This document shows, piece by piece, positions 17,105 to 35,800 of a stretch of 35,800 bases of DNA; position 1 is the stretch's first letter; each line of letters starts with the position of its first letter. Below the pieces are notes generated by a model that did not search any database, was not told the DNA's origin, and saw only the letters and a program-made list of their open reading frames with translations. The position numbers and the translations under genes are program-made. This DNA is from Gemmatimonadota bacterium. GTDB lineage: Bacteria > Gemmatimonadota > Gemmatimonadetes > Gemmatimonadales > Gemmatimonadaceae. The stretch is taken from contig JAQBYI010000032.1 in the NCBI GenBank assembly GCA_027622655.1, positions 1 through 35,800 of the forward strand, written 5' to 3'.

Positions 17105-17578
17105 CTACAACAGAGCGTCCTCTATGTGACGAACGGTGGGCGCGTGCGCCTGGCCATTCAGCACGAGCATCGAAGTGAGCGCGATATCGGACGCGAGCGA
17201 TGATCCAACAGAGCAGTACTTCTCGATCGCGAGTTCGATCGCCCGTTCGGCGTGTGGTGCCTCGATACCGGCGCCGTTGATGCGGTACTCGAGTTGTGCG
17301 CTCACCACGCGACGGGCCGTCTTGGCCCGCCGTTCCGCCGTGACGACGATTTCGAACTGCTCGGCCGGCGTACGGCGCTTTTCCAGATACTCGAGAACGT
17401 CAACGGCTGAACAGGCAGCAAGCGCGCCGAGCAGTGTATCGACCGGTCCTGTGCCGGCCTTCTTGTCTGCGTCAATGATGATCGGCGCGCCAGTGGTGCC
17501 GCGAACTTCGAAACGCTGATCTGCTTGCCACGTCGCGGTGACGGTCGTGGTGGGACCGGGAAGCGTTGGCTCAGTCAT
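17105..17578 (-). CDS. OsmC/Ohr-family protein
   Basis: 157 residues, the normal length of the family. The two redox cysteines are present: Cys56 in LLGALAACSAVDVL and Cys122 in EKYCSVGSS, with the surrounding GTGPVDTLLGALAAC and AIEKYCSV segments typical of the OsmC (YhfA-like) branch. These dimeric proteins reduce organic hydroperoxides using thiols; some YhfA-like members have unclear substrates. A TAGATT box 10 nt ahead of the ATG (17576-17578), with no ribosome-binding site, suggests a very short leader. It is divergent from tldD across a 155-base gap. Confidence 0.9.
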   Translation of the reverse strand: MTEPTLPGPTTTVTATWQADQRFEVRGTTGAPIIIDADKKAGTGPVDTLLGALAACSAVDVLEYLEKRRTPAEQFEIVVTAERRAKTARRVVSAQLEYRINGAGIEAPHAERAIELAIEKYCSVGSSLASDIALTSMLVLNGQAHAPTVRHIEDALL

Positions 17579-17588
17579 TGGATCGGGA

Positions 17589-17594
17589 AATCTA
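17589..17594 (-). promoter_or_regulatory. Putative -10 box for the OsmC gene
   Basis: TAGATT on the minus strand lies 10 nt before the ATG. It is one of three TAGxTT boxes immediately ahead of genes that lack a ribosome-binding site in this window. No -35 element is obvious. Confidence 0.3.
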
Positions 17595-17733
17595 TCGCCT
17601 GTCCGGCCGATCCCGGACTGGCCGCGGGAGGACGACCCGGATTCGCCGATGTCGGCGCACAGCCATCAGACCGAAGCGTTGGTGCGTACTTTATCCGGAC
17701 ACGTTCTCTCCTCCCAAGACGCAGGGAATGCCG

Positions 17734-19335
17734 ATGTCACCGAACCGACGCGACTTCGTTAAGGCTGGCGCGATTGCCACCGCCGCAACGATTGCCGGCC
17801 CGCGAATCCTTACCGCCGCGCCACCGCGGATCATCACGAGCGCACACGCCGCGCCGGGTGAGCCCTACTCCGAGGAACTCGCGCTCGAGGCAATCAATGC
17901 CGCGCGGGACGCGGGCGCGCAGTACGCCGACGCGCGCGTCGGCCGCTACCGCCGCCAGCGACTCAGCACCCGCGAGCGACAGATCACCGGCGTCTCCGAC
18001 GCTGAGACTTACGGCGTGGGCGTGCGAACGCTGGTGGACGGCGCGTGGGGCTTCGCCGCCACGGCGATCGTCACCAAGGAAGGCGTCGCCCGATGCGCGC
18101 GCGAAGCCGTGCGGCTCTCGCGCGCCGCCAAGCGCTCACTGCGCAAGCCGGTCGAACTCGCGCCGGTCGCGCCGGTGACGGGCACCTGGATCACGCCGTT
18201 CGTGCGCGATCCGATCGACGTGCCGATCGAGGAAAAGGTGGCTCTGCTCTTCGCCACCAACGAAGCAGCGCTCAAGGTGCCGAAGATTCGATTCTGCACG
18301 TCGGGGCTGCAGCTCCTGCGCGAAGTGAAAACGTTCGCCTCCACCGAAGGGACGCTCATCACGCAGACGTTCATTCGGTCAGAGGCGTCGTTCAGCGCCA
18401 CGGCCGCGGGCGACGGAATCACCGAAAGCTTCTCCGAGGAACTCCCACCGCGCTCGCAGGGATGGGAGTACATCGAAGAACTCGACCTCCCCGGGCACGC
18501 CGCCGAGTGGGCACAACTGGCGGTGGAGAAGCTGACGGCGAAGAGCGTGGACGCCGGCGCGTACAATCTCATCCTCCAGCCCAACAATCTCTGGCTCACC
18601 ATTCACGAGTCGATCGGACATCCGACAGAACTCGACCGGGCACTCGGCTACGAGGCCAACTTCGCGGGCACGAGCTTCATCAATCCGCCGGAAGAGATGA
18701 TCGGCAAGCTCAAGTACGGCCCCGAGTTCATGAACGTGCGCGGCGACCGCGTGCAGGAACACTCGGTGGGACTCTGCGCGTGGGACGACGAAGGCGTGCC
18801 GGCGGACGACTGGCTTATCGTCGAGAAGGGGATCTTCAAGGAGTACCAGACGACGCGCGAACAGGCAGCGTGGGTTGAACCGCTCACGGGCGTGAAGCGG
18901 TCGCACGGCTGCTCGTACGCTGACTCATGGAGCTCGGTGCAGTTCCAGCGGATGCCCAACATCTCGCTCAATCCCGCCGCCGCCGATGTCACGCTCGACG
19001 ACATCGTCTCGTCGACGGATCGCGGCATCATGATTCGCAACGCAGGCTCGTGGTCCATCGATCACCAGCGCTACAACTTCTCGTTTTCCGGCCAAGTGTT
19101 TTACGACATCAAGGGCGGCAAGATCACCGGAATGCTCAAGGACGTGGCGTACCAGGCGTCTACTCCGGTGTTCTGGAACTCGATGGACATGATCGGCGGC
19201 AAGTCGTCGTACTGGGTGGGCGGCACGTTCTCGGACGGCAAAGGTGAACCGTCACAGTCCAACTCCGTCAGTCACGGCTGTCCACCGGCACGATTCCAGA
19301 AAGTGGACATCATCAACACCGCGAGGAACGTCTGA
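17734..19335 (+). CDS. tldD: TldD-family metalloprotease with twin-arginine signal
   Basis: 533 residues from the ATG at 17734, chosen because AGGGA lies 6 nt upstream; the ATG at 17728 is too close to that site. The protein opens with a twin-arginine (Tat) signal, NRRDFVKAGAIATAATIAG, so it should be folded in the cytoplasm and exported. The zinc site HExxxH is present as His291-Glu292-SIG-His296 followed by PTELDRALGYEANF, the TldD hallmark. TldD and TldE form a heterodimer that degrades unfolded peptides and, in enterobacteria, matures microcin B17 and clears the CcdA antitoxin. Here the stop overlaps the start of tldE (TGATG), indicating translational coupling. Most studied TldD proteins are cytoplasmic, so the signal is notable. 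Confidence 0.9.
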   Translation: MSPNRRDFVKAGAIATAATIAGPRILTAAPPRIITSAHAAPGEPYSEELALEAINAARDAGAQYADARVGRYRRQRLSTRERQITGVSDAETYGVGVRTLVDGAWGFAATAIVTKEGVARCAREAVRLSRAAKRSLRKPVELAPVAPVTGTWITPFVRDPIDVPIEEKVALLFATNEAALKVPKIRFCTSGLQLLREVKTFASTEGTLITQTFIRSEASFSATAAGDGITESFSEELPPRSQGWEYIEELDLPGHAAEWAQLAVEKLTAKSVDAGAYNLILQPNNLWLTIHESIGHPTELDRALGYEANFAGTSFINPPEEMIGKLKYGPEFMNVRGDRVQEHSVGLCAWDDEGVPADDWLIVEKGIFKEYQTTREQAAWVEPLTGVKRSHGCSYADSWSSVQFQRMPNISLNPAAADVTLDDIVSSTDRGIMIRNAGSWSIDHQRYNFSFSGQVFYDIKGGKITGMLKDVAYQASTPVFWNSMDMIGGKSSYWVGGTFSDGKGEPSQSNSVSHGCPPARFQKVDIINTARNV

Positions 19336-20756
19336 TGCCCGCGCCGAAATCGCTCTTTCAGCAGCAGGACGCGGCTCCCTCGCTTTCGCGCGACGATGCC
19401 AAGAAACTCACCGACCGGATTCTCTCGTTTGCCAAGGCCGACGAGACTCGCGTCAATGTGAATAGCGGAACGGCCGGCAACACGCGTTTCGCAGGCGGCC
19501 AGGTAACCACGTCAGGGAGCGTCTCGAATACGACGGTCACCGTGGTCAGCACGATCGGGCGGAAGCGCGCGTCGGCGACGACCAACGTGCTCGACGACGA
19601 AAGCCTGCGGCGCACGGTTGATCTCGCCGAACGTCTGGCCCGGCTTTCGCCTGACGATCCGGAGCTGATGCCTGAGCTCGGGCCACAGCAGTACCTCACG
19701 ATTCAGAACCGGTTCGAGAGCACCGCCGGCCTCACGGCCGAACAACGCGTCACAGCTGCCAATGCGGTGATCGCGGCGGGCGAGGACACGTGGAAGGGTG
19801 CGAACGCGGTTGGCTCGCTCTTCACCGCGGGATTTCTCAATATCAATGCCTCGGCGAACGTGGTGGCCACGAGTCGCGGACTCTTTGCGTATCAGCCGTC
19901 GTCGAACGCGTCGCTCAGCAACACGGCGCGCACACCGGAGGGAACCGGCTCGGGTTGGGCGAGCGCGAACTCACGCGACTGGCGTAAGATCGATCCGGGC
20001 GTTCTCGGTCGTCGCGCGGCGCAGAAGGCAGTGCAGTCGCGCGCGCCTTTGGGGTTGGAGCCCGGCTTCTACACGGTTGTGCTCGAGCCGGCGGCCGCCT
20101 CGCAACTCGTCGGTCAGGTGGCAGGCGCGTTGAACGCTCGCAGCGCCGAAGAAGGGCGAAATGCCTTTTCACTTCCGAACGGTGCCACCCGACTCGGGCA
20201 GAAGATTTTCGACGATCGCGTATCGTTCTATTCAGACCCGGCCGATCCGAACGTGCTCGCCGATCCGTTCGACAGCTCCGGATTTCCCGCAGCGCGAAAC
20301 GTGTGGATCGAAAATGGTGTACTGAAGCAGTTGCAGTACGATCGGTATTGGGCGCAACGCAAGAACGTTCGCCCGACGACCGGGGGCGGTGGTGGCGGAG
20401 GCGGTGGTGGCGGCTTTGGCGGCGGCGGCGCGGTGCGGATGGCGCACGGCACCAAGACGCTCGACGAACTCATTGCCGGCTGCCGACGCGGCGTGCTCTG
20501 CACGCACTTCTTTTACACCAACGTGCTCGACCCGAAGAGCATGCTCCTCACGGGACTCACGCGCGACGGCACGTTCCTGATCGAGAACGGGCGAATCGTG
20601 CGGCCGGTGAAGAACTTCCGGTTCAACCAGAGCGTGATGCAGATGCTCAACAGCATCGAGGAAATCGGAAAGCCCGATGCGGGTGACGCGGGCAACTCGG
20701 CGCCCCCGATGCGCGTCACAGACTTCAACTTCGCGAGCATTACCGAAGCGATCTGA
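19335..20756 (+). CDS. tldE: TldE/PmbA-family protein, partner of TldD
   Basis: 473 residues, starting at ATG 19335 which shares one base with the tldD stop. It lacks an HExxxH motif, as expected for the non-catalytic TldE/PmbA subunit of the heterodimer; recognisable segments include SGFPAARNVWIENGVLKQL, CTHFFYTN and the closing ENGRIVRPVKNFRFNQSV. There is no signal peptide or Tat motif of its own. If TldD is exported by Tat, this subunit could travel with it as a passenger; otherwise the two would be separated. A run of glycines with a single Phe interruption (DNA about 20384-20431) forms an insert just before RMAHGTKTLDEL that is unlike the usual family sequence. Confidence 0.88.
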   Translation: MPAPKSLFQQQDAAPSLSRDDAKKLTDRILSFAKADETRVNVNSGTAGNTRFAGGQVTTSGSVSNTTVTVVSTIGRKRASATTNVLDDESLRRTVDLAERLARLSPDDPELMPELGPQQYLTIQNRFESTAGLTAEQRVTAANAVIAAGEDTWKGANAVGSLFTAGFLNINASANVVATSRGLFAYQPSSNASLSNTARTPEGTGSGWASANSRDWRKIDPGVLGRRAAQKAVQSRAPLGLEPGFYTVVLEPAAASQLVGQVAGALNARSAEEGRNAFSLPNGATRLGQKIFDDRVSFYSDPADPNVLADPFDSSGFPAARNVWIENGVLKQLQYDRYWAQRKNVRPTTGGGGGGGGGGGFGGGGAVRMAHGTKTLDELIAGCRRGVLCTHFFYTNVLDPKSMLLTGLTRDGTFLIENGRIVRPVKNFRFNQSVMQMLNSIEEIGKPDAGDAGNSAPPMRVTDFNFASITEAI

Positions 20757-24348: not shown

Positions 24349-25527
24349 ATGCTCGAGCTGCTCACCAACGCGCAGGTCCATGCCCCGGAGCCACTTGGCG
24401 TCCGGCACCTGCTCATTGCCGGCGGCCGGATCGCCTGGATCGGCGAAGAGATTCCCGACCTTCCCGCATCACTCGGCGCCCGCACCCGCGACATCGAAGG
24501 CCGGCGGCTGATTCCCGGACTCATTGACGCGCACGTGCACCTCACCGGCGGCGGCGGCGAAGCGGGCGCGCACACCAAGGTCCCGCCGCTCGCGCTTTCG
24601 CGATTCACGCGCGGCGGCGTCACCAGCGTAGTCGCGCTCCTCGGCACCGACGACGCGACGCGCCACCCGCGCGAACTCGTCGCCGCCGTGCATGCGCTTC
24701 GAAACGAAGGACTCTCCGCCTGGTGCTACACGGCAGGCTACCACGTGCCACCCGTCACCATCACAGGATCTGTACGCGGCGATATCGCCGCTATCGAATG
24801 CATCATCGGCGTGAAGTCCGCGATCAGCGACCACCGATCGAGCCAGCCGACGCTCGACGAGTTGCTGCGAATCGCGAGCGAAGCGCACGTGGGCGGCGTG
24901 ATGACGGGAAAGGCAGGCGTACTTCACCTGCACGTCGGCGACGGAGCACGTGGGCTCGCACTCATTAGAGAGGCACTCGAACACGCCGAGCTCCCCGCGA
25001 GCGTGTTCAATCCCACGCACGTCAATCGCCGCAAGGCGCTCTTCGACGAAGCAATCGCGCTGGCCAAGCTCGGCTGCAACGTCGACATCACCGCGTTCCC
25101 GGTCGCCGACGGCGAAGACGCGTGGCCCGCTGAGACGGCACTCGTGCGCTACCTCGAGTCCGGCGCTCCGCCAGAACGCGTCACGATCAGCTCAGACGGC
25201 GGCGGTTGTCTCCCGGTGTTCGACGACGACGGACGCGTGGCCAGCATGGACGTCGGCGATCCGGGCGCACTCGCGCGAACACTCAGGGCGCTGCTCAGCG
25301 CGGGCCAGCCGCTCGAACGCGTGCTTCCAGCATTCACCTCAAACGTCGCGTGGCTGCTGCGCCTCCCACGAAAGGGGAGCATCGCCGCCGGCAATGACGC
25401 CGACCTCGTGGTACTCGACAACGATGGAGGAATCCGGGACGTGATGGCCAATGGAGTGTGGCACGCAATGAACGGCAACGTGACGGTGGCCGGCTCGTTC
25501 GAGACGATGCACTCGAGTACCGTTTGA
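24349..25527 (+). CDS. iadA: Isoaspartyl dipeptidase (beta-aspartyl peptidase)
   Basis: 392 residues, the normal length of IadA. The binuclear zinc amidohydrolase site is complete by eye: HVH in LIDAHVHLTGGGGEAG, the lysine that is carboxylated in studied IadA within GVKSAISDHRSS, His in KAGVLHLHVGDG, His and the substrate-binding Arg in NPTHVNRR, and the catalytic Asp in ISSDGGG. The enzyme cleaves beta-aspartyl dipeptides in the cytoplasm; there is no signal peptide. Because it is followed directly by cyanophycinase and cyanophycin synthetase genes, its natural substrate here is very likely beta-Asp-Arg, the cyanophycin dipeptide, releasing Asp and Arg. It begins the operon. Confidence 0.93.
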   Translation: MLELLTNAQVHAPEPLGVRHLLIAGGRIAWIGEEIPDLPASLGARTRDIEGRRLIPGLIDAHVHLTGGGGEAGAHTKVPPLALSRFTRGGVTSVVALLGTDDATRHPRELVAAVHALRNEGLSAWCYTAGYHVPPVTITGSVRGDIAAIECIIGVKSAISDHRSSQPTLDELLRIASEAHVGGVMTGKAGVLHLHVGDGARGLALIREALEHAELPASVFNPTHVNRRKALFDEAIALAKLGCNVDITAFPVADGEDAWPAETALVRYLESGAPPERVTISSDGGGCLPVFDDDGRVASMDVGDPGALARTLRALLSAGQPLERVLPAFTSNVAWLLRLPRKGSIAAGNDADLVVLDNDGGIRDVMANGVWHAMNGNVTVAGSFETMHSSTV

Positions 25528-26378
25528 GCCCGGCTCAAGTGCCCGACGGCGGGGAGCGCGGCTGGATCATTCCGATCGGCGGCGGCGAACCCAAGGATCA
25601 AGAACCGGTAATCCTGGAACGATTCGTCCAGCTATGCGGCGGACGCGACTCGAAGATCGCGATCATCCCCACCGCGTCGAAGCTCGAAGACACGGGCGAC
25701 CGCTACGAAAAGCTCTTCCGCGAGATCGGCGCCGGCGAAGCGGTCGTTCTTGATTTCGACACGCGGCGTGACGCGTACGAGAAGGGACGCCTTTCCGAAC
25801 TCACCGATTGTGATGGCGTCTTTCTCACCGGCGGCAATCAGCTCCGCCTCTCGACCACGATCGGCGGGACGGACGTGGCGCGTACGCTTCGCGAAATGAA
25901 CGCGCGCGGCGTGCACGTTTGCGGCACCAGCGCGGGCGCGAGCTTCCTCTCCGAACACATGATCGCGTTCGGCTCCGACAACGCCACCACGCACGCAGGC
26001 TCGGTCACGCTCGCGCCGGGGCTCGGCCTCACAAACCGCGTCGTCATCGACCAGCACTTCACGCAGCGCAATCGGCTCGGCCGCCTCATCACGGCGCTCG
26101 CGTTCAACCCCTTCCTGATCGGCCTCGGGCTCGACGAGGATACCGCGGCCTTCATCGGCCCCGACCAGACTGTCGAGGTGGAAGGAAGCGGCACGCTCAC
26201 GGTGGTGGACGCCGAGCACCTCAAATTTTCGTCCATGGCGCAGGCGGGGCCAAACGACCCCGTATCGGTGCTCGGGCTCAAGATGCACGTACTGATTCGC
26301 GGCGCGACGTTCAACCTGCATACGCGCCACGCGTCGGCCGGCATACTCGCGGCTGACCGCGCCGGGGGTGCAGCTTAG
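25524..26378 (+). CDS. cphB: Cyanophycinase, serine peptidase family S51
   Basis: About 284 residues if started at TTG 25524, which overlaps the iadA stop by 4 bases (TTGA); GTG 25539 is nearly as likely, and a GTG at 25458 would overlap iadA too far. The S51 nucleophile is in CGTSAGAS (the Ser codon is 25929-25931), the equivalent of the Ser in GTSAGA of known CphB; FLTGGNQLRL and the conserved GLGL and DQHFTQRNR segments also fit. No signal peptide, so it is the intracellular type. It hydrolyses cyanophycin to beta-Asp-Arg dipeptides by an exo mechanism. The cphA start follows its stop after 3 bases. Confidence 0.94.
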   Translation: MSPAQVPDGGERGWIIPIGGGEPKDQEPVILERFVQLCGGRDSKIAIIPTASKLEDTGDRYEKLFREIGAGEAVVLDFDTRRDAYEKGRLSELTDCDGVFLTGGNQLRLSTTIGGTDVARTLREMNARGVHVCGTSAGASFLSEHMIAFGSDNATTHAGSVTLAPGLGLTNRVVIDQHFTQRNRLGRLITALAFNPFLIGLGLDEDTAAFIGPDQTVEVEGSGTLTVVDAEHLKFSSMAQAGPNDPVSVLGLKMHVLIRGATFNLHTRHASAGILAADRAGGAA

Positions 26379-26381
26379 CGA

Positions 26382-29198
26382 ATGCGCATTGTCGATCGCT
26401 CGGTCTACGTCGGACCTTCGCTCTACGCCCACTTCCCGGTCATCCGGCTCGAAGTGGACCTGGGCGAACTCGAGGCGTGGCCAACAGCGCGACTCGGCGC
26501 CCCGTTCATTGATGCGCTGCTGACGACGCTCCCCGGACTCGCTGAGCATGGTTGCTCGTTCGGCGAACCGGGCGGATTCGTTCGCCGGCTCAAGGAAGAC
26601 GAAGGCACGTGGCTCGGTCATGTGCTCGAGCACATCGCGATCGAGTTGCAGAACGTCGCGGGCATCAAGGTGACGTTCGGCAAGACACGCGGCACCGGAA
26701 CGCCGGGCCACTACCACGTCGTCTACGAGTACGAGCAGCGCGACGAAGGACTCGCGGCGGGCACACTCGCGCTCGACCTGCTCGATTCGCTCCTCCCCGC
26801 CGCGCTCCGCTCCCCCCGCCCTGCGGTTGACGCCGCTGAGCCGTTCGACTTCGACACCGAACGCGATGCGTTCATTCGGTTCGCGCAGCGCAGGGCGCTC
26901 GGGCCGAGTACCGCGTCAATCATTCACGCCGCCGAGGCGCGGGGAATCCCGTGGCTGCGACTGAACAGCCATTCGCTCGTGCAGCTCGGGTACGGCAAGT
27001 ACCAGCAGCGCATCCAGGCAACGGTCACGAGTCGCACGTCGCACATCGCCGTTGAACTCGCCAGCGACAAGGAGGAGACGAACCATCTCCTCTCGACGCT
27101 CGGGCTTCCGGTGCCGAAGCAGGCGCTCGTTCAGAACGCAACTGACGCCTCGCGCGCAGCAAAGAAGATCGGTTATCCCGTGGTAGTGAAGCCGTACAAC
27201 GGCAATCACGGTCGCGCTGTGGCGATTCACCTCTCCTCGGACGAAGCGGTGCGCACGGCGTTTGCGGCAGCGCAGGAAGTCTCGCGCTCGGTGCTGGTGG
27301 AAAGCTTCGTCACGGGCGATGACCATCGTCTCCTCGTGGTGAACGGTACGCTCGTCGCCGCCACGCGGCGCACGCCGGGCCACGTCGTGGGCGATGGAAA
27401 ACACACCGTCGCCGAGTTGATCGCGATCGTGAACAGCGACCCGCGTCGCGGCATCGGCCACGAGAAGGTGCTTACGCGCCTCCAACTCGACGCGCAGGCC
27501 AAGCGGCTGCTCGACAAGCACGGGTACACGGAGGAAACCGTTCCCCCGGCCGGCGAGATCGTCTACCTGCGCTCGACCGCCAATCTTTCGACCGGCGGTA
27601 CGGCCACCGACGTCACGGACATCATCCATCCCGACAACGTCGATATGGCGGTGCGCGCGATCGAGGCGGTTGGGCTCGACGTCGGAGGCGTGGATTTTCT
27701 CACGACCGACATCACCCAGTCGTACAAGAAGCACGGCGGCGCGATCTGCGAAGTGAACGCCGCGCCCGGCTTCCGGATGCACAGCGCACCGAGCGAAGGA
27801 AAGGCGCGCGACGTCGCGACTCCCGTGATTGACATGCTGTTTCCGCCCGGCCAGCCAACTGTCGTCCCGATCGCGGCGGTGACCGGCACGAACGGCAAAA
27901 CGACCACCGCGCGTATGCTCGCCCACATCTGCAAGATGGGTGGCATGACGCCGGGCCTCACCACGACCGACGGTGTTTACATAGATGGGCAGAGCACGGT
28001 TGAAGGCGACATGACCGGTCCCGTCGCCACGCGCACCGTGCTCAGCGACCCCGCCATCGACGTGGCGGTCCTCGAGATCGCGCGCGGCGGACTGCTGCGC
28101 GCCGGAATGGGCACGCGCTATGTGGACGTCGGCGCGGTGCTCAACGTGCGCTCGGACCACCTTGGCATGCGCGGCGTTGACACACTCGAAGCACTGGCCG
28201 AGGTGAAGCGCGTGGTTGTCGAGGTGGCGCGCGACACAGCCGTGCTCAACGCCGACGATCCGCTCTGCCTCAAGATGGCGTCGTACACGGAGGCGAAGCA
28301 TCTCTGCTACGTGACCACTGATCCGGAGCACGCGCTCGTGCGCGAGCACATCCGCGCCGGCGGCCGCGCCGTCTCGCTCGAGAGCGGCGTCAACGGTGAG
28401 ATGATCACCATCTACGACAAGGGAGCGCACATTCCGCTCCTCTGGACGCACCTGATTCCCGCGACGATTGAAGGACGTGCACAGCACAACGTGGTGAACG
28501 CGATGTTCGCCGCGGCGATGGGTTTCTCGATGGGGCTCAAGCTCGAGGTCATCCGGCAGGGATTGAGCACGTTCGACACGACGTTCTTCCAGGCGCCGGG
28601 GAGGATGAACGTGTACACCAAACTGCCATTCAAGGTCATCCTCGACTACGGACACAACGCGCACGCCGTGGAGATGATGACCGAACTCTGCTCGCGGCTC
28701 GACGTCGCCGGACGGAGGATCGTGGTGCTTGCCGGGCCGGGCGATCGCCGCGACGAGGATCTGCGCGAGATTGCACACGCGACTGCGGGGCGATTCGACC
28801 ATTACATCTGCCGGCGCGACGACGGACTGCGCGGCCGCGACGGCGACGAAGTCCCCGCGATCATGTCGGCGGCGTTGCGGGCGTGCGGCGTGCCTGACTC
28901 GAGTATCTCGATCATTCCGAGCGAGGAAGCCGCGGTCGACGCCGCGTTGCACATGGCCGCCGCTGGTGACCTCGTGCTGGTCTTTGGCGACGCGATCACG
29001 CGCTGCTGGGAGCAGATCACAACGTTCCACCCGGACGGAATGGCGCGTACGGTAACGGCGGAGCACGCGATTCCAAACGGAGCTGCCCGCACGACCGCGA
29101 AGCCGCCCACTGCGGCGCGCGTGCCCCGTTCTCCGAAACTCGGCGCCCTCGTGCGCGACGACCGCGGCGTGCGCCTCGCCCGCGAGAGCGAAGACTGA
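26382..29198 (+). CDS. cphA: Cyanophycin synthetase
   Basis: 938 residues, slightly longer than typical CphA1. It has three parts: an N-terminal domain (about 1-160; VYVGPSLYAHFPVIRLEVDL, CSFGEPGGFVRRL, GHVLEHIAIELQ), an ATP-grasp domain (about 218-490; VVKPYNGNHGRAV, CEVNAAPGFRMH) and a Mur-ligase-like domain from about 495 with P-loop GTNGKTTT (502-509) and DYGHNAHAVEMM. The ATP-grasp site adds Asp to the polymer backbone and the Mur-like site adds Arg to the side chain. The N-domain keeps HxxEH (His80, Glu83, His84), which matches the primer-forming hydrolytic site reported in some CphA proteins. It starts with ATG 3 bases after cphB. Its C-terminal 40 or so residues are Pro/Arg-rich and not conserved in the family. 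Confidence 0.96.
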   Translation: MRIVDRSVYVGPSLYAHFPVIRLEVDLGELEAWPTARLGAPFIDALLTTLPGLAEHGCSFGEPGGFVRRLKEDEGTWLGHVLEHIAIELQNVAGIKVTFGKTRGTGTPGHYHVVYEYEQRDEGLAAGTLALDLLDSLLPAALRSPRPAVDAAEPFDFDTERDAFIRFAQRRALGPSTASIIHAAEARGIPWLRLNSHSLVQLGYGKYQQRIQATVTSRTSHIAVELASDKEETNHLLSTLGLPVPKQALVQNATDASRAAKKIGYPVVVKPYNGNHGRAVAIHLSSDEAVRTAFAAAQEVSRSVLVESFVTGDDHRLLVVNGTLVAATRRTPGHVVGDGKHTVAELIAIVNSDPRRGIGHEKVLTRLQLDAQAKRLLDKHGYTEETVPPAGEIVYLRSTANLSTGGTATDVTDIIHPDNVDMAVRAIEAVGLDVGGVDFLTTDITQSYKKHGGAICEVNAAPGFRMHSAPSEGKARDVATPVIDMLFPPGQPTVVPIAAVTGTNGKTTTARMLAHICKMGGMTPGLTTTDGVYIDGQSTVEGDMTGPVATRTVLSDPAIDVAVLEIARGGLLRAGMGTRYVDVGAVLNVRSDHLGMRGVDTLEALAEVKRVVVEVARDTAVLNADDPLCLKMASYTEAKHLCYVTTDPEHALVREHIRAGGRAVSLESGVNGEMITIYDKGAHIPLLWTHLIPATIEGRAQHNVVNAMFAAAMGFSMGLKLEVIRQGLSTFDTTFFQAPGRMNVYTKLPFKVILDYGHNAHAVEMMTELCSRLDVAGRRIVVLAGPGDRRDEDLREIAHATAGRFDHYICRRDDGLRGRDGDEVPAIMSAALRACGVPDSSISIIPSEEAAVDAALHMAAAGDLVLVFGDAITRCWEQITTFHPDGMARTVTAEHAIPNGAARTTAKPPTAARVPRSPKLGALVRDDRGVRLARESED

Positions 29199-29206
29199 CG
29201 GGTTTT

Positions 29207-30955
29207 GTGCCCCACGACGTAACGGCTCTGCTCTTCGAGGATTCGCGGCGCCTCACCGGACCGAACTTCTGGCTCGGCGAACGCGGCGTGATTCTCGATG
29301 CGGCGCTGCATAGCGAACGCGCCACCGCGGAGATCGCGGCGTGGCGTGATCGCGTCGCTGAACTCACTGGCCCGTTCGGCTGGCGCACTGAGATCGCCGT
29401 GCGTCGCGACGGATCGCGCGCGGTGCTCGCCTTCACCGCGCCACTCGATGCGCTCTACACCGCGACACTCATCAATGAGTGGGCCTGGACACTAGCCGCG
29501 ACTGATGGAATAGCGCGAGCGGCGGCGATGCCACCGCCCGATGACGAGCCGCTGCCCGTGGAGTTGCCGCAGGCACTCGAGCGCCTGCATCTGCTGCTCG
29601 CCGCCGAAGCGAATCCCGCGCTCGTTGCGATGGCGGAGCGCGCGGCGCGCGAGAACGTGCCGTTTCTCTCCGACGACGAACTCGTCACAGTCGGTTACGG
29701 TGCGCGAAGCGAGACGTGGCCGGCACGCGCAGTGCCCTCTCCGGACGCCGTAGAGTGGAAAGCACGCGAAACCATACCTGTGGCGTTGGTCACCGGATCG
29801 AACGGCAAGACGACGACCACGCGGCTTGTGGCTGCGATGCTGGCGAAGGCCGGTCACACCGTGGGCTTCTGCTGCAGCGATGGAGTGTTCGTCGCCGGCG
29901 AGCAGATCGAAAGCGGCGACTGGAGCGGCCCCGGCGGAGCGCGTCTCGTGCTGCGCAACACTCGCGTGACCGCCGCCGTGCTCGAGACCGCACGCGGCGG
30001 CCTGCTGCGTCGTGGACTCGCCGTGCCGTACGCCAGCGCGGCGATTGTCACGAACATCGCCGAAGATCACTTCGGCGGGTACGGCATTCGATCGCTCGCC
30101 GATCTGGCAGCGGTGAAACTCTGCGCTGCGAACGCGCTCGCGAGCAGCGGCACACTCGTCCTGAACAGCGACGACGAAACGCTGCGGATGGTGGCCCGGA
30201 ACGACGATGAAGCGGGTGGCGGTGTTATCGACAGCGCGACCTCGCGGCGCGAAGCGCGCACAGTCCGCGATCACGCCGGTCACGTGAACAACATCGAGTG
30301 GTTCAGCGCCGGCAAGCTCCCGGACTGGATGCCGCTTGTGAGCGAGATGCCCATCACCCGCGGCGGGGCCGCGGCGTACAACGTGGCGAACGCCATCGGC
30401 GCAGCGCACGTGGCCCGCGCGCTTGGAGTCGCCTCCACGGCAATCGAGATGACGCTGCGAGAGTTCGGCACAGACAACGCCGATAATCCCGGCCGTCTCG
30501 AACGATTCGACGTGAAAGGCGTTCAGGTGTGGATCGACTACGCGCACAACCCACACGGACTAGCCGCGCTGCTCACGGCCGCACGCGCCGAAAAGGGTGC
30601 AGCCCGCATGGGATTGCTGCTCGGCCAGGCCGGCGACCGCGATGATGACGCAATTCGCGCGCTGGCCCGCACTGCGTGGGACGCGCGGCCGGAGCGGATT
30701 GTGCTCAAAGACCTCGACGGCTACTCCCGCGGCCGCGCCCCTGGTGAAGTTCCCGCACTTCTTCGCAATGAACTGCTCATCGCCGGCGCGCCCGCTGACA
30801 CGCTGGAAATAGTTCCGGACGAGGTCGCTGGTGTGCGCGCGCTCATTGACTGGTCACGGGCCGGCGACCTGCTGGTGCTCCCAGTACACGCACTCGAAGC
30901 GCGCGCAGCCACCATCGCGTTGATCGACAGGCTCGGCGGCGCAGTGCAATCTTAG
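29207..30955 (+). CDS. CphA-related Mur-ligase protein lacking the ATP-grasp domain
   Basis: 582 residues from GTG 29207, 8 bases after cphA. The C-terminal two thirds are a Mur ligase related to the cphA product: P-loop GSNGKTTTT (197-205), the CSDGVFVAGEQIESGDWSGP region, ARGGLLRRGL, TNIAEDHFG and DYAHNPHGLAAL, each with a close counterpart in CphA. Before it are a weak copy of the CphA N-domain (LTGPNFWLGERGVILDAAL; LINEWAWTL where CphA has VLEHIAIEL) and the linker phrase VPFLSDDELVTVGYG, matching IPWLRLNSHSLVQLGYG. The whole ATP-grasp domain, about 280 residues, is absent, as is HxxEH. It probably forms isopeptide or amide bonds on a cyanophycin-related substrate; the precise reaction is unknown. 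Confidence 0.85.
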   Translation: MPHDVTALLFEDSRRLTGPNFWLGERGVILDAALHSERATAEIAAWRDRVAELTGPFGWRTEIAVRRDGSRAVLAFTAPLDALYTATLINEWAWTLAATDGIARAAAMPPPDDEPLPVELPQALERLHLLLAAEANPALVAMAERAARENVPFLSDDELVTVGYGARSETWPARAVPSPDAVEWKARETIPVALVTGSNGKTTTTRLVAAMLAKAGHTVGFCCSDGVFVAGEQIESGDWSGPGGARLVLRNTRVTAAVLETARGGLLRRGLAVPYASAAIVTNIAEDHFGGYGIRSLADLAAVKLCAANALASSGTLVLNSDDETLRMVARNDDEAGGGVIDSATSRREARTVRDHAGHVNNIEWFSAGKLPDWMPLVSEMPITRGGAAAYNVANAIGAAHVARALGVASTAIEMTLREFGTDNADNPGRLERFDVKGVQVWIDYAHNPHGLAALLTAARAEKGAARMGLLLGQAGDRDDDAIRALARTAWDARPERIVLKDLDGYSRGRAPGEVPALLRNELLIAGAPADTLEIVPDEVAGVRALIDWSRAGDLLVLPVHALEARAATIALIDRLGGAVQS

Positions 30956-32588: not shown

Positions 32589-35500
32589 TCAGAAGAACGG
32601 CTGGTACCGCGGCTTCCACAGCCGATCGTACGTGAGCCCCACGCGAAGCAGCATGCTCGCCCCGGGTGTCCGGTTGGTGCTCACCTTGCCTTGGAAGAAG
32701 AAAAAATCGGCCGCGATCGAGAGTGAAAGCTCGTCCACCAGCGGCACCGAGAGCTCGTGCACCATGTTGTATCGCAGCGCGAGGTGGCGCGGAGTGTCGC
32801 CGGGCGAAGGCAGGAAGTAGGTGAAGTCGTTGTGCATTCGGTAGGTCAGGTCGCCGGCCGAACCCGCGCGCGTCGCTCCGCCGAAGCGTCGCTCCAGGTC
32901 GGCAATCGCCTGGGCGCCGTACTGCAGGTTCGGTTGGCCGAGGTCGTTCTCAATGGCCGCCCCAAGCTCCAGGCGCCGCCACACGTCGCTGCCAACCCGC
33001 AGGTATCCCGCCGTCGCACGCACGGCCATCTGCCTCGGATTCCTGACGTGAGTGGCGGCGTCCTCGGTAGGAGTGAACTCCGTGTCGAATAGCCCGCGCA
33101 CGAATGGCCGCCACTGGACACGCGAGTTGGGAAATGCCGACGGGCGAAAGGTGACGTCGAGTTTGAGATCGTCGGCGGTCTCCGTGGCCGGCGGACTATC
33201 GGGACCGGGCACACCCTGCCGTGCGTAGGCAATGCTGAGGCCCACGTCCGTGGCCGTGGCGCGGCGCTCGTGAGTCGCGATGAAACGGCCGCTCGTGCCC
33301 ACGACCCAGCTGTTCCGCGTGTTCACCCGGCTCTCGGGTACGCTGCTGTAGCCCGATGACTTCGAGATCTCGTTCAGCGACACCCAGAGCGTGGGCCTCA
33401 CGAAGGTGAAGCTCAGCAGGTTGATGTGCGGTTGGCCGGGCGCGACGAGCGCGGCAATCCGGTCGATCTGCTCGCGACCCCTGCTCTCCCGGCGAATCAG
33501 TCGCAGTTCTTCGAACACGAAGTCCTTGAGTGCGAGCGCTGCACCGTCGTTCGACGGCACGAGATCGCCGTCCGCGCCGATCGTGAAGAGCCGCCGGACC
33601 CGCCGCCCACGTGAGAACGTCCGCGCGCGCGCGCCCTCGTAGAGCACATCGCTCGTCGCCACGCGGTAGTACGTCTGGTTATCGAGCCGGTGACCAAGGA
33701 CGAGGCCGTTCGCCATGTCGATGCCGCTCGTCGCCAGCTCACCGCGCGTATCGGCGCTCAGCATCGCGCGCAGGTCTGAGCCGAGCACGTCGAGCACCAC
33801 CACCTGATCCTCGGTCCAGAGCCACGCTCCGATTTCGTTCTCGTGCAACTTCCCAATGAGCGGCGGAAACTGATCGAGCCGGCGGATCACTGCCACTTCA
33901 GCGCTGGCGCGGAGACGCAGCAGCCGCGCCATGAACGCCTCCCACATCGCCTGCGACATCCGGCCCTGTCGCGTTACGTCGTCGAACTCGCGCAACTCGG
34001 GATACTGGTCGGCAATATCCACGAAAGCCGGGACCATCAGTTCACCACGCGGCTGACGCGCCAGTGTGGCCATCGCGTTGATCTCGCGCACCATCGCCGA
34101 ATCGAGCGGTGTGCGGTCCGTCACCGGCTCCACCTGGTTGGCCAACGCCACCAGATACGGTCTGGGCATCTCCGGCCGCGTGGCGAAACTGAGGTCGAGA
34201 CGACCCACGACCACGCCATTCGCGGCGCTTCGCGCCACGAGCGCTGGGGCGCCGGGTCGCGCAAACGGGCGCTCGGGCAAGTACACGCGCGTGAGCGTGC
34301 GCTCCGGCGCCCACCGCACGGGCATGTCTGCCACGATCGCGTCGACGCCCATCACCTCCTGCGCGATCACGGCGTTGTCGGCCGCATCGAGGTTCGAGAG
34401 CACCACGATCGAGGTCGCGCCGGCGGCGCGAAGCCGGTCCACCTCGCGGCGAGCCGCCGCCTGAGGCGCCTCGAAGGTGAAGTCGCGCGCGGCTGCGCGC
34501 GGCAGCCGTTCGCGAGCCCGGGCGTTCACGAGTCCCACGAGTCCCACCCGCAACCGACCGGCGTACACCATCCGGCTCGGCGTGAACAGCGACGAGTCCT
34601 TCGCCGTGACGTTCGCGGCGAGCAGCGTCAGGTCGGGAAACGCACGGCGCAGCGAATCGAGCGCTGCGGCGCCCAGCGCAAGCTCGAACTCGAATGGGAC
34701 GACGGCTGTGTAGCCGAGCCGTTGCAGAGCGGTGAAGTCGAGGTGCGCGCGGTCAGCCGGCAGGAGGTCGAGGTCGCCCTGCTGGTGGCCGAGGTCCACC
34801 GTGATCGCAATCGCCCCGGCAGCCTGCGCCTCGGCGCGGATGCGCCGCACGATCGTGGCGCGCGGACCCATCTGGCCGAGGTTCAGCGGAAGTTCGAAGA
34901 GCCGGGAGTCGAGCACGTCCACGCGGTTCATCTCACCCACCGTCCATGCTGCCGGATCCGCCGGCCACACGGCACCCGGCTGTTCCACGATCACCACGCG
35001 CTGTTCGGCGGGCGTGCGGAGCCGCGACACCGTAACGCGGGCTTCGACGAGGTCGGGAAAGTCGAGCGTCCGCCGCGGATTGCGCTCCAACATCGCAACA
35101 AGGTCTGGCTCGGGGCGCCACGGATCCTGCACGAGCATCACGTCGGCCGAAACCAGCGCGCGCACGCCGTCGAGCCGCTCAGCGTTCGCATGCTCAGCAA
35201 GAACGAACGGCAGCTCCGTACCTTCCGGTTCCTGGCCCGGAAAAAGGATCACGATGCCGGGCGCACGCCACGCCATATGGCTCACGAGCTTGAACGGCGC
35301 GCCCTCAGCGTTGGCCTGCTCGGTGAGCAGCTCATGTTCGGCCTGCGCGCGGCGTACGCCGAGCGCGCCGAGGCTCCGGCCCGTGTAGATGATGGACGCG
35401 CGGAGTGTGTCGGCGGGTGCCTGCGCTGGTGCCTGCGCTGGTGCCTGCGCTGGTGCCTGCGCTGGTGCCTGCGCCGGCGCTTGGGCCCGCACGGTCGATG

Positions 35501-35630
35501 GAGCGAGCGCGAGCATCGCCGCGAACGCGCATGCGCTCGTGCAGACGGTGCGGCGCCACTGAAAGATTTCGTCTCTGTGTTGCAAAGCCGTGCGAGTGGG
35601 GGAGATGCCTGCCCTAAGGTCAGACGACAC
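32589..35630 (-). CDS. Exported 5'-nucleotidase-like pseudoenzyme joined to a C-terminal barrel
   Basis: 1013 residues from GTG (35628-35630); TTG at 35583-35585 (residue 16) is a plausible alternative that places the signal peptide (TSACAFAAMLALAPSTVRAQ) closer to the start. Then come AQAP repeats (about 50-72) and, from about 255 to 440, a region laid out like UshA/5'-nucleotidase: TVDLGHQQGD, ALQRLGYTAVVPFEFELALG, LLAANVTAKD, GRLRVGLVGLVNA, IVVLSNLDAADNAV and MGVDAIVADMP. The metal-binding residues of those motifs (GNHE, GGHSH and others) are not there. A nucleotidase C-terminal-like region follows, then from about 700 to the end a beta-rich sequence finishing in RYQPFF, as in outer-membrane barrels. 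It is convergent with the serine hydrolase, 9 bases apart. Confidence 0.75.
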   Translation of the reverse strand: MSSDLRAGISPTRTALQHRDEIFQWRRTVCTSACAFAAMLALAPSTVRAQAPAQAPAQAPAQAPAQAPAQAPADTLRASIIYTGRSLGALGVRRAQAEHELLTEQANAEGAPFKLVSHMAWRAPGIVILFPGQEPEGTELPFVLAEHANAERLDGVRALVSADVMLVQDPWRPEPDLVAMLERNPRRTLDFPDLVEARVTVSRLRTPAEQRVVIVEQPGAVWPADPAAWTVGEMNRVDVLDSRLFELPLNLGQMGPRATIVRRIRAEAQAAGAIAITVDLGHQQGDLDLLPADRAHLDFTALQRLGYTAVVPFEFELALGAAALDSLRRAFPDLTLLAANVTAKDSSLFTPSRMVYAGRLRVGLVGLVNARARERLPRAAARDFTFEAPQAAARREVDRLRAAGATSIVVLSNLDAADNAVIAQEVMGVDAIVADMPVRWAPERTLTRVYLPERPFARPGAPALVARSAANGVVVGRLDLSFATRPEMPRPYLVALANQVEPVTDRTPLDSAMVREINAMATLARQPRGELMVPAFVDIADQYPELREFDDVTRQGRMSQAMWEAFMARLLRLRASAEVAVIRRLDQFPPLIGKLHENEIGAWLWTEDQVVVLDVLGSDLRAMLSADTRGELATSGIDMANGLVLGHRLDNQTYYRVATSDVLYEGARARTFSRGRRVRRLFTIGADGDLVPSNDGAALALKDFVFEELRLIRRESRGREQIDRIAALVAPGQPHINLLSFTFVRPTLWVSLNEISKSSGYSSVPESRVNTRNSWVVGTSGRFIATHERRATATDVGLSIAYARQGVPGPDSPPATETADDLKLDVTFRPSAFPNSRVQWRPFVRGLFDTEFTPTEDAATHVRNPRQMAVRATAGYLRVGSDVWRRLELGAAIENDLGQPNLQYGAQAIADLERRFGGATRAGSAGDLTYRMHNDFTYFLPSPGDTPRHLALRYNMVHELSVPLVDELSLSIAADFFFFQGKVSTNRTPGASMLLRVGLTYDRLWKPRYQPFF
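35416..35487 (-). repeat. 12-bp tandem repeats encoding AQAP units
   Basis: The unit GGTGCCTGCGCT (+ strand) repeats as five nearly exact copies at 35416-35475, with a degenerate sixth at 35476-35487. On the coding strand they specify Ala-Gln-Ala-Pro repeats right after the signal peptide of the 32589-35630 gene, a flexible linker that can change length by slippage without breaking the frame. Confidence 0.85.
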
Positions 35631-35678
35631 TCACGCCCAGTCAACCAACGGCCGGCCGGCGGGGGGCCCGGGCGCACA

Positions 35679-35722
35679 ACGCTGGACTAACGCTGGACTA
35701 TCGCTGGACTAACGCTGGACTG
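35679..35722. repeat. Four 11-bp direct repeats upstream of the pseudoenzyme gene
   Basis: Units ACGCTGGACTA (35679-35689), ACGCTGGACTA (35690-35700), TCGCTGGACTA (35701-35711) and ACGCTGGACTG (35712-35722) are head to tail with no spacer. They start 49 bases upstream of the GTG at 35630. A period of 11 bp places every unit on nearly the same face of the helix. The rest of the right edge (35723-35800) contains nothing I can identify. Confidence 0.85.
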
Positions 35723-35800
35723 AACGACGCGAGGGTATGTCCCGTTTCTAGTTGAAAGTCAGGTGATGACTCGGGGGTCAACGGTCACGCAGCAACCTTC

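Follow-up and report, generated by a model that had tools for sequence, protein, structure and literature searches.

A conserved 5'-nucleotidase-like protein of Gemmatimonadaceae with replaced metal ligands and a predicted C-terminal outer-membrane barrel

The locus and its gene

The window, i.e., the whole 35,800-nucleotide stretch of Gemmatimonadota DNA analysed here, corresponds to one complete contig. Close to the contig end, an open reading frame with a GTG start encodes a protein of 1013 aa, hereafter the pseudo-nucleotidase, whose segments are listed in Table 1 together with other features of the window. The APAQ linker behind the probable signal peptide is encoded by an exact 12-bp tandem repeat (4.9 copies) that is absent in the orthologues, and the signal peptides of the orthologues are short and of the ordinary type. 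A tandem repeat with an 11-bp unit (AACGCTGGACT, 4.4 copies) is located just upstream of the gene, near the contig end.

Table 1 Features of the pseudo-nucleotidase gene and of its surroundings in the window
Feature	Positions	Strand	Basis
Pseudo-nucleotidase open reading frame	32589..35630	-	
Residues 1-73, probable Sec signal peptide (RR...AFAAMLALAPSTVRA-Q) with the APAQ-repeat linker behind it	35412..35630	-	Sequence
Residues 83-89, TGRSLGA, NDxHG position (D to R85, H to L87)	35364..35384	-	AF2 model aligned to UshA
Residues 90-250, alpha/beta insert specific to the family, after strand 1 and before helix 1 of the metallophosphoesterase fold	34881..35363	-	AF2 elements
Residues 251-520, core resembling metallophosphoesterases, with the linker to the following domain	34071..34880	-	PDB, NCBIfam, hhalign, fold match
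Residues 279-283, DLGHQ, GD site (metal Asp to His282; Gln in two orthologues)	34782..34796	-	Alignments
Residues 312-317, PFEFEL, GNHE site (metal Asn to Glu314, catalytic His to Phe315)	34680..34697	-	Alignments
Residues 411-414, LSNL, LSHL site (metal His to Asn413, invariant)	34389..34400	-	Alignments
Residues 434-438, ADMPV, probable GHxH site (both His lost)	34317..34331	-	Alignments
Residues 521-735, region like the 5'-nucleotidase C-terminal domain, altered base-binding motifs	33426..34070	-	Weak PF02872 match, hhalign to residue 667
Residues 739-1001, predicted 12-stranded outer-membrane beta-barrel	32628..33416	-	AF2 strands, PDB matches, hydrophobic alternation
Residues 1002-1013, conserved tail WKPRYQPFF, and stop codon	32589..32627	-	Alignments
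12-bp tandem repeat encoding the APAQ linker	35416-35474		
11-bp tandem repeat upstream of the gene	35678-35726		
Cyanophycin-type cluster	24349-30955		
PmbA/TldD metallopeptidase pair	17566-20756		

The gene adjoining the pseudo-nucleotidase encodes a beta-lactamase-type serine hydrolase. An association between the two was rejected, since the closest relatives of the hydrolase in other genomes sit without a pseudo-nucleotidase gene. Beyond closely related pairs, no neighbour is common to different lineages, and the context indicates neither a substrate nor a partner. Elsewhere in the window, the cyanophycin-type cluster comprises, in consecutive genes, an amidohydrolase, an S51 (cyanophycinase-like) peptidase, a cyanophycin synthetase of 938 aa, and another Mur-ligase protein, of 582 aa, and the PmbA/TldD pair lies upstream of these genes. 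Of 40 related genomes, only three (G017, G039, and G020) have near relatives of the cyanophycin synthetase (69-72%); a homologue with 45% identity on contig C327 of G019 contains two in-frame TAG codons.

An intact 5'-nucleotidase of the tandem (double) type, 1084 aa long (G000:C29; L093, 1956-5210), is encoded in the window genome as well, so the housekeeping nucleotidase role is covered elsewhere; similar double enzymes are common in Gemmatimonadaceae. The intact proteins identified reach only ~25-30% identity to the pseudo-nucleotidase, belong to other subfamilies, and have no barrel. Long paralogues of 1100-1400 aa, considered as candidate barrel-bearing 5'-nucleotidases, turned out to be double nucleotidases without a barrel, some with spurious 5' extensions. 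A second, milder motif loss was observed in two partly degenerate UshA-like proteins of ~360 aa (L100, 3836-4942, and L099, 2824-3888; HTADGYGYFDDCGC, GNHE changed to GEWDF, SGHGG), which represent another family of the class and whose genes adjoin an agmatinase-like gene.

A 5'-nucleotidase-like module without the canonical active-site residues

In a phmmer search of the PDB sequences, the window protein matched the 5'-nucleotidase 2z1a (E 1.4e-8) and SoxB (5e-5), and the best PDB match of the family profile was SoxB (E 1.7e-9). Among the NCBIfam models, the window protein matched UshA_like_PCGU (NF041198) at 1.6e-12 and SoxB at 2.9e-11, and UshA and NadN were matched with E-values up to 2e-5. 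All of these matches are significant while scoring far below the curated cut-offs (30 against 600 bits for UshA, 42 against 550 for SoxB (TIGR04486), and 47 against 275 for NF041198), and thus indicate a resemblance beyond chance in a protein that lies outside every named family. The Pfam model PF02872 (5_nucleotid_C) was matched below threshold (15.1 against 23.6 bits; E 0.026 for the window protein and 4e-4 for the best orthologue), and no PF00149 match was reported for the window protein at E up to 1. Alignment of the family with canonical Gemmatimonadota 5'-nucleotidases by hhalign gave a probability of 99.7 over residues 251-667, spanning both domains. The metallophosphoesterase fold and the 5'-nucleotidase C-terminal domain are thereby both recognisable, the latter weakly.

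The first AF2 run, based on an 8-row alignment, gave a usable model for residues 71-435 (pLDDT mostly 60-93) and a poor one past residue ~520. In VIA-align comparisons, the model superposes on SoxB (Z 26.0), CD73 (25), and UshA (24-25) over ~270 residues with an rmsd of 3-4 Å. According to this prediction, the window protein has the metallophosphoesterase fold of the UshA/SoxB/CD73 type, as the sequence-only reading had proposed. The sole strong structural match in BFVD, a pandoravirus 5'-nucleotidase, is uninformative. Since the C-terminal nucleotidase-like domain has a pLDDT below 50, the pocket and its contact with the barrel are not visible in the model. Between strand 1 and helix 1, the model contains an alpha/beta insert of ~160 residues. 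Residues 71-250 have the highest share of invariant columns (40% in the eight sequences), and no relatives of the insert were found outside the family in Pfam, the PDB sequences, or 198 class genomes.

Ligand positions were assigned by structure and profile alignments in UshA numbering, with model residue 1 placed on UshA 27; for UshA, we take the established assignments of the metal-ligand and catalytic residues to hold. In the window protein, Asp41 is replaced by Arg85, His43 by Leu87, Asp84 by His282, Asn116 by Glu314, the catalytic His117 by Phe315, and His217 by Asn413. In the family, His252 corresponds to Met or Leu at 436 and the His/Gln254 position to Val, Gly, Ala, or Leu at 438; the register of both is uncertain, and residues 409-465 are free of His in all eight sequences. 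Hence every position of the canonical metal ligands and of the catalytic His is substituted in 8/8 proteins, in agreement with the loss claimed from the sequence, and all eight lack the di-metal ligand set and the Asp/Asn-His catalytic dyad of the 5'-nucleotidase/UshA enzymes. The family is likewise set apart from SoxB by its lost ligands and its score below the cut-off, and in the alignment no member has the CxU/CxC-type motif after strand 1 that is a feature of UshA_like_PCGU. Judging by sequence, the replacement of the whole canonical ligand set and of the catalytic His means that the module cannot carry out the two-metal phosphoester hydrolysis of the family. A single metal could in principle be held by the invariant Glu314, Asn413, and Asp435.

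The motif assignments of the sequence-only reading were corrected in part. The replacement of NDxHG by GRSLG and of LSHL by LSNL was correct, and the GNHE site indeed lies in VVPFEFE, with the equivalents now refined to Phe-Glu314-Phe315-Glu316. The GD site, read as GHQQGD, is altered, and its equivalent is Gly-His282 rather than the later 'GD' of that string. The replacement of GGHSH by ADMPV(RW) is borne out by the lack of His described above, with the exact register uncertain.

The replacing residues are themselves conserved. Arg85 and Leu87 are, like Asn413, invariant in the eight sequences. In this alignment of eight related sequences, on which the conservation counts rest, invariant positions are more frequent within two residues of the replaced sites than elsewhere in the domain (18 of 30 against 9.9 expected, P 0.0016). 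In the C-terminal nucleotidase domain, RRLDQF, LWTED, and EGAR take the place of the base-binding motifs NGGGIR, PFxN, and GGDG of the intact paralogues. Since the base-binding motifs are replaced too, a nucleotide ligand, which the sequence-only reading had considered, is disfavoured.

Relatives, selection, and the predicted barrel

A search of 395 phylum genomes identified seven true relatives with 52-60% identity, six complete and one split over two contigs, all from one other genus of Gemmatimonadaceae; a profile search of 394 class genomes gave no further relatives. A single-sequence scan of genome contigs yielded no match. An alignment-based scan of 84,980 species genomes with conserved peptide patterns, a type of scan that can overlook divergent members, gave the same seven loci; all are in Gemmatimonadota MAGs, one of them labelled Gemmatimonas phototrophica. 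The family had no match in plasmids. It is known from a few lake-type Gemmatimonadota and was found only in Gemmatimonadaceae, namely in 7 of the 17 genomes of the orthologue genus and 1 of the 18 of the window genus. Contamination of the contig as a cause of this rarity is unsupported, since two neighbouring genes of the window are closest to genes within the same genus (79% in G003 and 72% in G017). The family signature consists of YTxRSLGALG...DEHELL, VDLG[HQ]Q, VP[FY]EFEL, and KPRYQP.

All seven close homologues share the motif loss, and none has intact metal motifs. For two close pairs, the dN/dS values (Nei-Gojobori) of the whole gene are 0.082 (L044/L048) and 0.088 (L047/L049), those for the barrel are 0.055-0.063, and the overall span is 0.06-0.12, indicating purifying selection. 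The low dN/dS and the seven further orthologues rule out the decay of a single copy, and a gene kept intact under selection has probably been put to new use.

In a second AF2 run, on residues 522-1013, the C-terminal region is predicted to form 12 long antiparallel strands with a pLDDT of 50-86, mostly 60-86; the listing of the first run has 11. The matching PDB structures are PcoB (Z 15.3), Tsx (14.5), NanC (14.3), OMPLA (14.2), AaaA and NalP (13.6), and EstA (12.3), and the Foldseek matches also include porins, FapF, and autotransporters. The in/out alternation of hydrophobicity along the strands lies above that of 4997 of 5000 shuffles (3/5000). The predicted 12-strand model is amphipathic with an even strand number, as is typical of outer-membrane beta-barrels, and we consider the C-terminal ~260 residues a predicted outer-membrane barrel. 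The modelled loops after the odd strands (20, 7, 19, 6, 12, and 8 residues) are longer than those after the even strands (4, 9, 4, 11, and 2). This pattern is expected when strand 1 begins on the periplasmic side and would fit an ordinary barrel and an autotransporter alike. Between the last nucleotidase-like helix and strand 1, the model has a linker of ~22 residues, an 11-residue helix included, at low pLDDT.

No Pfam family, Autotransporter included, matched the barrel at E up to 5, and barrel relatives outside the family were absent from the PDB sequences, Pfam, and 198 class genomes, bar one marginal match broken by a stop. The protein end is nearly invariant (LRVG[LI]TYDR[LVI]WKPRYQP), and we infer a resemblance to the BAM signal pattern. 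A barrel ending in Phe had been expected from the sequence; the barrel is supported by the prediction, and the terminal Phe is not universal, as L046 ends in Leu and L048 in Arg.

Interpretation and comparison with known systems

We interpret the protein, with moderate confidence, as a pseudo-nucleotidase of the outer membrane that has been reused for binding or gating. The signal peptide would export the protein, the C-terminus would form the predicted 12-stranded barrel in the outer membrane, and the nucleotidase-derived module would lie ahead of the barrel, with the periplasmic mouth as its most likely position. A domain that precedes a C-terminal barrel is normally periplasmic unless it is an autotransporter passenger, and the surface exposure proposed earlier is unsupported on this ground. 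Periplasmic placement is preferred because the linker is short and the barrel has no autotransporter family match. Binding is the most likely mode of action of the module, given that the substitutions are fixed and under selection and that the strand of the former active site bears a large new insert. The module may capture or pass on some ligand that is not a simple nucleotide, or it may gate the barrel or hold a partner there; the receptor or sensor role suggested earlier is a guess. More speculatively, the emptied site could have been rebuilt with the lineage-specific insert into another ligand-binding or catalytic site on its own outer-membrane channel, resulting in a single-chain capture-and-import (or gating) device, which we regard as doubtful. 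A link to nucleoside uptake through the likeness to Tsx was rejected, as Tsx ties with unrelated 12-stranded barrels.

In the manner of an autotransporter, the barrel might instead export the dead module to the cell surface or anchor it there, and the module would then act as an adhesin or receptor. The order of passenger and C-terminal 12-stranded barrel would be as expected, and NalP, AaaA, and EstA score within 1-3 Z units of the best matches; in the autotransporters AaaA and EstA, the passengers are globular enzymes. However, the barrel matches neither the Autotransporter family nor any other barrel family in Pfam, non-autotransporter barrels score slightly higher, and the residues before strand 1 would be barely enough to cross the pore, so that we rate such display as possible but rather unlikely. 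A periplasmic protein with a soluble beta domain at its C-terminus would agree with the modest pLDDT and the missing Pfam match, but we consider it very improbable in view of the 12 long antiparallel strands, the significant in/out alternation, and the best matches, which are all outer-membrane barrels.

As for the module, a new active or metal site involving the insert could be formed by His99, Glu98, Glu100, His118, Glu314, Glu316, Asn413, and Asp435. All eight residues are invariant in the eight sequences, and strand 1 and the insert are the most conserved part of the protein, yet many residues are invariant anyway among eight related sequences, and residue 282 varies between His and Gln. 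Such a re-invented enzyme seems unlikely to us. That the gene is an ordinary 5'-nucleotidase whose active site was lost by drift would account for the loss of all catalytic motifs and for the patchy occurrence among related genomes. However, all seven complete copies are open over ~1000 codons (contig ends interrupt the eighth), the dN/dS is low throughout, and identical substitutions occur in lineages whose sequences differ at roughly half of all positions, which leaves drift scarcely credible.

Few bacterial phosphoesterases have been studied as well as the secreted 5'-nucleotidases, and to our knowledge the cell surface of Gemmatimonadota is little studied. With non-ligand residues fixed at every metal position and a predicted barrel of its own, the family is a clean natural case of an extracytoplasmic pseudoenzyme, and it suggests that the 5'-nucleotidase fold can serve as an outer-membrane binding module. 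This question is testable, since the family is compact and easily recognised by its signature.

Among the known systems, the UshA/CD73-type 5'-nucleotidases (PF00149 and PF02872) share the two-domain order, the metallophosphoesterase fold, and secretion with the pseudo-nucleotidase, which differs in its replaced metal ligands, catalytic His, and base-binding motifs, in the insert of ~160 residues, and in the C-terminal barrel. The SoxB thiosulfohydrolase is the best structural match to the family and likewise carries additional residues between strand 1 and helix 1, whereas it keeps its di-metal centre and has no barrel. The UshA-like (seleno)protein model NF041198 is the best NCBIfam match of the window protein by E-value. 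The best profile matches outside the family are L018 and L100 from the same class (E 1e-16 and 1.5e-15), which have also lost some metal motifs but retain GD and LSHL, are ~360 aa long, and lack the insert and the barrel.

PcoB, Tsx, NanC, OMPLA, and the autotransporter domains have the same strand number and topology as predicted for the family barrel, but these named 12-stranded barrels are only 6-12% identical to it, have no detected sequence relation, and carry no nucleotidase fusion. Fusions of the PlpD type likewise place an N-terminal soluble enzyme-like domain before a barrel (PMC11116518); in PlpD, this domain is patatin-like and is combined with a POTRA domain and an Omp85 barrel of 16 strands. 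We found no description of a barrel-linked or dead 5'-nucleotidase in the open-licence literature. The conserved, lineage-restricted pseudo-nucleotidase joined to a predicted outer-membrane barrel is a new combination of known parts.
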